NCBI RefSeq assembly: GCF_003319115.1
Contig: NZ_QOHF01000007.1
Span: 124,001-188,000, forward strand
DNA length: 64,000 nt
From: Geodermatophilus sp. TF02-6
GTDB taxonomy: Bacteria > Actinomycetota > Actinomycetes > Mycobacteriales > Geodermatophilaceae
Reading direction: 5' to 3'
A program made the translations under genes and the position numbers. How positions within the stretch are numbered: the stretch's first letter is position 1; the number at the start of each line of letters is the position of its first letter. Shown piece by piece: positions 60,448-61,824 of this stretch. Below the pieces are notes generated by a model. It had not been told where the DNA came from and made no database searches. It saw only the letters and a list, made by a program, of their open reading frames with translations.

Positions 60448-60457
60448 CGTCTTGCTG

Positions 60458-60487
60458 TGGCGCCATGGTGGTGTCACCATGGCGCCA
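60458..60487. promoter_or_regulatory. perfect 13-bp inverted repeat at the HicB-like start codon
   Basis: TGGCGCCATGGTG (60458-60470) and CACCATGGCGCCA (60475-60487) are exact complements around a GTGT spacer. The last A of the right arm is the A of the ATG at 60487. Position and symmetry fit an autorepressor operator or a hairpin hiding the start codon. Confidence 0.7.
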
Positions 60488-60999
60488 TGGCGTCCCTGGA
60501 CCTCACCCCGCACGTCGCGGCGCTGCGCGAGGCGCTGGGCGCGGTCGCCGCGGCCGGTGGCGAGCAGACCCGCGAGACGGTGGGGCTGCTGGCCACGGGC
60601 ATGGAACCGGCGGTCCGGCTGGTGCTGCTCGACGCGTGGGCGGCCATGGCGGCGGAGGTGACCGCGGCGTGGGACGGCGGACAGGTCGACGTCCGCCTCC
60701 GCGGGGGCGGGGCGGAGGTCGTCGTCGTCCCCGACCCGGAGCACCCACCGACGGGCCCGGGGCACCCACCGGCGGGCGGAGCCCCTCCCGCCGGGGAGCA
60801 GGACGCCGAGGGCGCCGTCGCCCGGATCAGCCTGCGCCTGCCCGAGCCGCTCAAGGTCCGCGCCGAGCAGGCCGCCGCCTCCTCCGGCGCGTCGCTGAAC
60901 ACCTGGCTGGTCCGCGCCGTCGCCGCGGCCCTGCACGCGCCCCACCCGGCGCCACCCCTGCGTGGGCCGCGCCGCCTCTCCGGCTTCGCCCGCAGCTGA
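60487..60999 (+). CDS. HicB-like ribbon-helix-helix protein
   Basis: A 170-residue protein. An N-terminal helical region (HVAALREALGAVAAAGGEQT, VRLVLLDAWAAMAAEVTAAW) is followed by a Pro/Gly linker and a ribbon-helix-helix-like C-terminal segment, ARISLRLPEPLKVRAEQAAA then SLNTWLVRAVAAAL. HicB-family antitoxins have such a domain, but no HicA toxin is adjacent. It is probably a DNA-binding autoregulator of the downstream DUF4097 gene. The start is ATG 60487, or GTG 60457, which would make the inverted repeat coding. Confidence 0.75.
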   Translation: MASLDLTPHVAALREALGAVAAAGGEQTRETVGLLATGMEPAVRLVLLDAWAAMAAEVTAAWDGGQVDVRLRGGGAEVVVVPDPEHPPTGPGHPPAGGAPPAGEQDAEGAVARISLRLPEPLKVRAEQAAASSGASLNTWLVRAVAAALHAPHPAPPLRGPRRLSGFARS

Positions 61000-61020
61000 C
61001 CCACACCTCTGGAGGTCCGC

Positions 61021-61824
61021 ATGTCCGTCCGGACGTTCACCCGCGCGGTCGCCACCCCGCCGGTCGTCGAGGTCCGCAACCCGGCCGGGTCGGTCACCGT
61101 CGCCGCGGTCGAGGGCTCCACCGGGCTGTCGGTGCGGGTCGAGGCCCTCGACGAGGCCGCCGAGGAACTCCTCGACCGGGTGGTGGTCGAGGCCAGCGAG
61201 GAGCAGCCGGTGCGACTGCGGGTCGTCGTCCCCGAGCACCGGCTGTTCCGCACGCCGTCCTTCGCCGTGCGCGTGGACACCCCGGCCGGTGCCGCGGTGC
61301 TCGCGACGGTGGCCTCGGCGCGGTGCGAGCTGCGCGGCGCGCTGGGTCGGGTGGTGCTCACCTCGGCCAGCGGCGACTGCTCCGTCGAGTCCTGCGCCGA
61401 GGCACAGGTGCGCAGCGCCAGCGGCGACGTCGCCCTGGGCGCGGTCGCGGGGCCGGCGACGGTGCACGCGGCGTCCGGTGACGTCCGGCTCGGGTCGGCG
61501 GCCGGTGCGGTCGAGGTCCGGACCGCCTCCGGCGACGTCGAGGTCGGCGCGGCCGGCGGTGACCTGTCGCTGCGCACCACCTCGGGCGACGTCGAGGTCG
61601 GCAGCCTGGCCGCCGGCAGCACGCGGGTGACGTCGGTGTCCGGGGACGTGACGCTCGGCGTCCGGCCCGGCCTGCGGGTGTGGCTCGACCTCGCCAGCGT
61701 GTCCGGGCGCCTGGAGTCCGAACTCGCCGACGAGGCAGCCGGCAAGGGCGCGGCGGAGCTCACCGTGGCGGCGCGGTCGGTTTCCGGCGACGTGCGGATC
61801 CGCCGTACCGCACCGGTCGGCTGA
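61021..61824 (+). CDS. DUF4097 beta-strand repeat protein
   Basis: A 267-residue protein. From about residue 115 it consists of repeated strands with ASGDV or TSGDV cores (VRSASGDVALGAVAG, VHAASGDVRLGSAAGAVEVR, TASGDVEVGAAGGDLSLRTT), forming a right-handed beta-helix. No signal peptide, so it is probably cytoplasmic. Function unknown. It has GGAGG before the ATG, and follows the HicB-like gene by 21 bp, a pair seen in many actinobacteria. Confidence 0.88.
   Translation: MSVRTFTRAVATPPVVEVRNPAGSVTVAAVEGSTGLSVRVEALDEAAEELLDRVVVEASEEQPVRLRVVVPEHRLFRTPSFAVRVDTPAGAAVLATVASARCELRGALGRVVLTSASGDCSVESCAEAQVRSASGDVALGAVAGPATVHAASGDVRLGSAAGAVEVRTASGDVEVGAAGGDLSLRTTSGDVEVGSLAAGSTRVTSVSGDVTLGVRPGLRVWLDLASVSGRLESELADEAAGKGAAELTVAARSVSGDVRIRRTAPVG

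Follow-up and report, generated by a model that had tools for sequence, protein, structure and literature searches.

Our findings favor a model where a gene for an RHH protein and the DUF4097 (Toastrack) gene behind it form an autorepressed operon whose promoter, operator, and start codon would all be a single element and whose Toastrack protein would dock on the tail of the repressor to tune or relieve repression; taken as a whole, we regard this model as probable. The two genes lie in a stretch of 64,000 nucleotides from Geodermatophilus sp. TF02-6 (contig NZ_QOHF01000007.1, positions 124,001 to 188,000 of the forward strand), here called the window, and all positions are counted from its first letter unless a locus is named. 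Its features are the following.

60452–60457, plus strand: candidate −35 element TTGCTG (TTG at −35/−36 in 151/158 operator loci)
60458–60465, plus strand: operator box 1, TGGCGCCA (consensus TGRYGYCA at −29 to −22)
60469–60476, plus strand: operator box 2, TGGTGTCA (consensus at −18 to −11)
60480–60487, plus strand: operator box 3, TGGCGCCA, ending on the A of the ATG (consensus at −7 to +1)
60475–60480, plus strand: candidate −10 element CACCAT, running from box 2 through the spacer into box 3 (158/158 loci with A(−11) and T(−7))
60458–60487, no strand: 13-bp perfect dyad, arms 60458–60470 and 60475–60487
60487, plus strand: predicted transcription start, the A of the ATG (leaderless), from −35/−10 spacing and the scarcity of Shine-Dalgarno sites
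60487–60999, plus strand: RHH regulator gene, 170 aa (annotated-type name HicB-like), from a PDB-sequence profile and the fold
60505–60732, plus strand: N-terminal domain, residues 7–82, two helices and a beta hairpin (AlphaFold2)
60814–60936, plus strand: RHH domain, residues 110–150 (profile and structure comparison)
60979–60996, plus strand: C-terminal tail SGFARS, motif [ST]G[WFY]xR (G166 invariant; tracks DUF4097)
61011–61015, plus strand: Shine-Dalgarno GGAGG of the DUF4097 gene (read from the sequence)
61021–61824, plus strand: DUF4097 (Toastrack) gene, 267 aa (PF13349, E 4.3e-18)

According to this model, the gene at 60487 would yield a dimeric RHH repressor with an N-terminal helical domain and a C-terminal RHH domain. 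Three TGRYGYCA boxes overlying −35, −10, and +1 would serve as its operator, with the third reaching into the start codon. Each box would hold one RHH dimer, and the dimers, aligned along the same side of the DNA, would exclude RNA polymerase. Transcription from the A of the ATG would give a leaderless mRNA, so that the entire 39-bp gap before the gene would serve as promoter and operator. The co-transcribed Toastrack protein would then dock on the repressor tail, [ST]G[WF]xR, and tune or relieve repression when an envelope or drug signal arrives; elsewhere, about half of the loci have the operon running on into an ABC exporter.

Three Boxes Fused to a Start Codon

The perfect 13-bp dyad on the start codon, from which the preliminary description set out, is exact. 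Its arms, TGGCGCCATGGTG (60458–60470) and CACCATGGCGCCA (60475–60487), are complementary at 13/13 pairs around the loop GTGT (60471–60474), and it ends, at 60487, on the A of the ATG. Chance does not account for the dyad: with up to 3 mismatches allowed, the pattern occurs once in the window and in 0/100 shuffles. When the genome itself was searched with the two 9-bp ends and a free 12-bp middle (up to 3 mismatches), the present site came back exact, along with one further site at 3 mismatches; only the exact site is meaningful, because the reversed-pattern control was commoner at 3 mismatches (6 per strand vs 2). The dyad arises from three tandem boxes, TGGCGCCA, TGGTGTCA, and TGGCGCCA, which start at 60458, 60469, and 60480 and thus lie 11 bp apart. 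Comparison across relatives shows that the long dyad is not the conserved unit; that role falls to the three palindromes of 8 bp (TGRYGYCA), each one helical turn from the next. The boxes span the stretch from the −35 TTG to the start codon, and box 3 includes the A of the ATG; the 39-bp gap between the stop codon of the upstream DUF1232 gene (60447) and the ATG holds TTGCTG and the three boxes.

The suggestion that the dyad belongs to an operator-like element at the start codon finds support in sequence comparison. Among 201 non-redundant relatives, three boxes stand at the RHH gene's own start codon in 158, and in 19 they instead mark where a short upstream ORF begins (counted if within 300 nt upstream of the RHH gene); 17 relatives have two boxes only and 6 have none, and 23/200 scored loci lack the full three-box form. 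The box test asked for at least 21/24 letters and permitted 11- or 12-bp spacing for box 1; applied to random windows of these loci, it was passed by 0/3,310. A stricter first count found the element in 80/117 loci, where 16/20,273 other start codons in the same loci also passed, by chance or as true second sites. The 201 rows are not a random sample. They draw on four sources: matches within the family, 80 relatives (the top-ranking ones of 484 or more in genome contigs), a sample spread evenly over the class, and 28 picked genomes. Of identical core proteins, only the first was kept; the 28 genomes were picked from families f2 and f110 because the first loci without DUF4097 had turned up there. 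The even class sample is a fairer estimate than the pool: it holds the RHH gene in 65/197 genomes (69 matches; 64 read, 5 short ones omitted), and of its 63 loci besides the window's, 61 have DUF4097 next and 52 have the three boxes at the start. In the window's own family, a relative of the RHH protein occurs in 54/112 genomes (57 matches). DUF4097 follows directly in 47/47 of the loci inspected, out of 57, and many family loci read TGRYGYCA-N3-TGRYGYCA-N3-TGRYGYC-ATG. A profile scan of genome contigs gave at least 484 relatives; in the top 80, the element also occurs in Streptomyces, Saccharopolyspora, Promicromonospora, Microbacteriaceae, and others.

The link between element and gene family also emerges when protein information is left unused. 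Screened blind for three boxes plus ATG, with at most one mismatch, 396 genomes of the phylum yielded 13 distinct sites in 13 genomes, and the reversed pattern gave 0 in the control columns printed. Twelve of the 13 lie just before an RHH gene that is followed by DUF4097, and 11, the window's own included, are fused to the RHH start codon; at L062 the boxes stand about 17 nt before an RHH start with its own Shine-Dalgarno site. Site L051 (1501–1532 of that locus), with three boxes and one mismatch, has neither RHH nor DUF4097 nearby. The Geodermatophilus sp. TF02-6 genome yielded a single site at up to one mismatch, which implies that, at this stringency, the genome offers one target only.

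In relatives with a short ORF inserted ahead of the RHH gene, the element sits at the first ORF and was found upstream in 20/20 loci examined; in two such loci (L023 and L208), box 3 does not run into a start codon. In Geodermatophilaceae (L005–L030, e.g. L012), an ORF of about 50–70 codons lies between operator and RHH gene. This inserted ORF has captured the fused start codon and shows the pattern M..W.YxEELRxQL ... DRDVARLLSPWRR; the one tested gave no Pfam match.

An RHH Protein and the Letters of Its Boxes

On sequence profile and predicted structure, the window protein can be assigned as an RHH regulator. A sequence profile compared with the PDB matched AtaR (E 0.001), KacA (0.018), Mnt (0.029), and Arc (0.037), and residues 110–156 of the model superimpose on PutA, CopG, AmrZ, and Arc with Z 5.2–5.7 and a Foldseek E of about 1, a strand-helix-helix fold shared with RHH relatives. 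Predicted alone, the first 82 residues reach a mean pLDDT of 88.6 and would fold in the order helix-helix-strand-strand. Against the PDB, this N-terminal domain has no significant match (best Foldseek E 0.57, VIA Z 5.4); the Z 5.4 matches are long-coiled-coil ATPases, an ordinary level, in a comparison whose rows did not include the N-terminal half of HicB. Two direct repeats of 21 nt, 90% alike, lie at 60735–60776, in the linker of the RHH protein.

MetJ and Arc act as RHH dimers on tandem short palindromes, and the met box of MetJ is an 8-bp sequence, AGACGTCT, which the box sequence TGACGTCA resembles. By our reading, residues 113/115/117 of the strand correspond to Arc Q9/N11/R13; R113, S115 (60829–60831), and R117 are the expected base-contacting residues of the strand, and by analogy with Arc we take residue 115 to be the middle position of the three (R113, x115, R117). 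Unlike in MetJ and Arc, the repeat here is 11 bp instead of 8 bp, an extra N-terminal domain is present, and the operator is fused to the start codon.

Residue 115 varies together with the letters of the boxes. Of 169 loci, 53 have N there, 48 have S, 67 have T, and 1 has K, and when G at position 3 and C at position 6 are counted over the three boxes (maximum 6), the mean score is 4.87 for N, 2.33 for S, and 1.57 for T, with the K locus left out. Paralogues within one genome follow suit: in G073, L026 has T with 0/6 and L043 has N with 6/6, and in G944, L213 has N with 5 and L240 has T with 2 (the latter counted by eye). This covariation argues that the RHH protein reads these boxes. The window's own protein goes against it, for its S115 is paired with 5/6 G/C letters, the highest value among the 48 S loci. 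On the tree, N115 needs 4 changes, only 1 of them forced by well-supported branches, and thus the covariation rests on few independent events; 0% of 200 bootstrap trees unite the N115 loci in one clade.

Toastrack and the C-Terminal Tail

The preliminary description placed a DUF4097 beta-helix gene after the HicB-like gene, correctly so: the gene at 61021–61824 matches PF13349 with 66 bits against a cut-off of 22.9 and is the genome's only PF13349 match. The survey of co-occurrence that had been proposed for the two genes shows the pair to be widely conserved, DUF4097 following the RHH gene in 180/201 non-redundant relatives, as in 61/63 loci of the even class sample. At the other end of the RHH protein, beyond a variable linker that separates it from the RHH domain, lies a short tail in which G166 is invariant (52/52) and R169 nearly so. 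With the pattern [ST]G[WF]xR, which was chosen after alignment A2 had been viewed, tail and DUF4097 are both present in 178 of the 201 loci, both absent in 20, and mismatched in 3. The mismatched loci are L062 (ending in KGTVRT) and L104 (PPAGTA), with DUF4097 and no tail, and L126, with a tail and no DUF4097. Families f2 and f110, which belong to the same order, illustrate the correlation: in 28 picked genomes, their 30 loci divide into 12 with DUF4097 and tail and 18 with neither.

On the tree, DUF4097 was lost three times; the tail went with it in two cases, and L126 is a recent loss with the tail kept. A pair test of this co-loss gives p 0.5, significance being out of reach with two independent co-losses. 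In 6 DUF4097-less loci the AlkZ-like neighbor is still present, 27–740 nt after the RHH gene, compared with 827–2,841 nt in 33 DUF4097-positive loci; since this gene still adjoins, DUF4097 is missing from the same place. A polyketide-cyclase or lipid-transport-like gene (one was tested with Pfam) replaces the missing DUF4097 in L228, L234, L240, and L241. At L238 (family f110), also without DUF4097, the next gene has a DUF1707 SHOCT-like domain, a domain that has been linked to Toastrack in a published survey (PMC11237479).

Two versions of an autorepressed operon differ in what the tail is for. Toastrack could simply be regulated cargo, a membrane-linked scaffold, with the tail serving DNA binding or stability of the RHH autorepressor. 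The persistence of operator and RHH gene without DUF4097 favors such an arrangement, as do the tail retained in L126 and the small number, two, of independent co-losses of tail and DUF4097; the strength of the association (178 / 20 / 3) and the position of the tail, set apart from the RHH domain by a variable linker, speak against it. We consider this cargo role possible, if somewhat doubtful. In the version favored here, Toastrack would dock on the tail, perhaps as an anti-repressor, and the tail/DUF4097 correlation is the first concrete idea here of how Toastrack could talk to a transcription factor.

HicB Resemblance and Toxin-Antitoxin Reading

The name HicB-like holds for the RHH part alone. 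The Pfam HicB family (PF05534) scores the window protein at 18.9 bits, under its cut-off of 21, and covers residues 114–144 only, and the sole HicB chain listed, 6g26_B, aligns to residues 112–154; at E ≤ 0.01, PF05534 is matched by 51/52 relatives. The N-terminal domain of HicB is RNase H-like. A genome-wide search for HicA (PF07927), whose absence had been noted before, gave 0 matches at E ≤ 0.01; 7/14 control genomes scored positive. Membership in HicB, as first assumed, is not supported on either count. Like HicAB, the present system has an RHH domain in the second half of the protein, with weak similarity to PF05534; unlike HicAB, it has an apparently different N-terminal half, no HicA, and Toastrack as partner.

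Should the RHH protein nonetheless be an antitoxin and DUF4097 its toxin, one would expect two adjoining genes with the RHH gene first, an operator of autoregulatory appearance, and an RHH part resembling antitoxins such as AtaR and KacA, all of which are found. DUF4097, however, belongs to the Toastrack beta-helix family, which the survey describes as scaffolding envelope-stress systems inside the cell (PMC11237479), and an ABC exporter follows in half of the loci. Moreover, two lineages lost DUF4097 and kept the RHH gene and operator, and the reverse order of loss, expected for an antitoxin, was not seen. With HicA absent from the genome and no match from PADLOC, a toxin-antitoxin reading is not supported, and we judge it very unlikely; the RHH/DUF4097 pair looks like a regulator and not like a toxin-antitoxin pair. 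Many actinobacterial proteins named 'HicB family antitoxin' may belong here, in which case they have been mis-filed as toxin-antitoxin genes.

Probable Promoter and Leaderless Start

The three-box element coincides with promoter letters. TTG begins at −36 or −35 in 151/158 operator loci, versus 63/3,160 control 6-nt windows. All 158 also carry the two strongest letters of a −10 element, A(−11) and T(−7), which are not independent evidence because A(−11) is the last letter of box 2 and T(−7) the first of box 3. A sigma-70 promoter scan gave 0 sites, as expected at this G+C content. No ribosome site is seen before the window ATG (60487), in agreement with the preliminary description, and an SD-like 4-mer precedes 1/158 RHH genes, compared with 123/138 DUF4097 genes. 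Given the TTG and the scarcity of SD-like sites, the leaderless mRNA envisaged at the outset, starting from the A of the ATG, appears likely and well supported by these comparisons.

The dyad had also been taken for a start-codon hairpin, that is, an RNA structure masking the start codon for translational control, with transcription coming from upstream. RNA from 60450 does fold better than shuffles (z −2.77), whereas RNA from 60487 folds no better than shuffles (z +0.77); the hairpin would thus form only with an upstream RNA start, which contradicts a leaderless one. The −35/−10 spacing places the predicted transcription start at the A of the ATG, and the dyad would then be absent from the mRNA. 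Complementarity of the spacers is close to that of shuffled pairings (0.375 vs 0.355, p about 0.27), and perfect 13-nt arms occur in just 4/80 three-box loci, the window's included. Boxes 1 and 3 pair better with each other than shuffled combinations do (0.819 vs 0.784, 0/2,000), an excess equally well explained by boxes drifting together within a lineage. With spacers not conserved as complementary and the fold missing in RNA from 60487, we rejected the hairpin, to which we give very little chance. That box 3 and the start codon coincide through compact packing, and that an ordinary leader comes from a promoter inside DUF1232, is suggested by L062, where the boxes precede a start that has a Shine-Dalgarno site, and is made very improbable by the fusion at the same position in 158/201 relatives, 157/158 of them without such a site. 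Under the autorepressed model, the element would be a clean case of a leaderless gene with its start codon inside its own operator.

Known Systems and the Wider Operon

That the pair is an undescribed two-gene system, as had been ventured, is not supported. The PSP survey of Ravi and co-workers (PMC11237479) records an actinobacterial operon in which Toastrack is joined by ABC genes and an RHH factor, and it proposes Toastrack as a sub-membrane docking surface; an ABC ATPase follows within 2 kb in 52/108 of our DUF4097-positive loci with at least 2.6 kb of sequence. The composition on record (RHH, Toastrack, ABC ATPase, and permease) is the layout of L088, L107 (ABC_tran and ABC2_membrane by Pfam), and L112, and its RHH protein likely represents the present family. 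The passage that mentions that operon gives neither an operator nor a leaderless start nor a tail (PMC11237479). The window locus, in turn, is without ABC genes, DUF4097 being followed by a convergent AlkZ-like gene; the neighbors identified are DUF1232, thymidylate synthase, DHFR, and AlkZ-like. An operon of this kind is already in print; of the fused promoter-operator-start-codon element and the tail, we found no description in print in the one open-access library searched.

A comparable arrangement is the LltR-DUF1700-DUF4097 operon of Listeria, in which loss of the repressor LltR (PadR) raises DUF4097 expression about 100-fold and for which envelope-acting signals are supposed (PMC6624303). 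It likewise consists of an autorepressor gene followed by a DUF4097 gene; it differs in its PadR winged helix and the extra DUF1700, and no leaderless element figures in the portion of the description seen (PMC6624303). In the lunaemycin cluster, as far as its gene account goes, a 177-aa protein without an assigned function, Lun1, stands beside the DUF4097 protein Lun2, and a DrrA ATPase stands beside a second DUF4097 protein in Lun26–27 (PMC9866976); these genes are possibly the same module in antibiotic clusters.

Going further, we tentatively envisage a phylum-wide class of switches: a 36-bp promoter-operator-start element in which three RHH boxes in helical phase would supply both the key −10 letters and the start codon of a leaderless mRNA, Toastrack as an anti-repressor that would read the repressor through the five-residue tail, lost along with Toastrack in some lineages, and paralogues kept apart within one cell by matched changes in strand residue 115 and in positions 3 and 6 of the boxes. 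As a single proposition this is speculative, and we would put it forward with reservation.

Finally, the end of the contig itself, beyond the window (L033, 5750–6401 of that locus), reads by eye as 5S and 23S rRNA, about 4 kb after the RHH gene, which may explain why the contigs of many relatives also break 3–5 kb from the locus.
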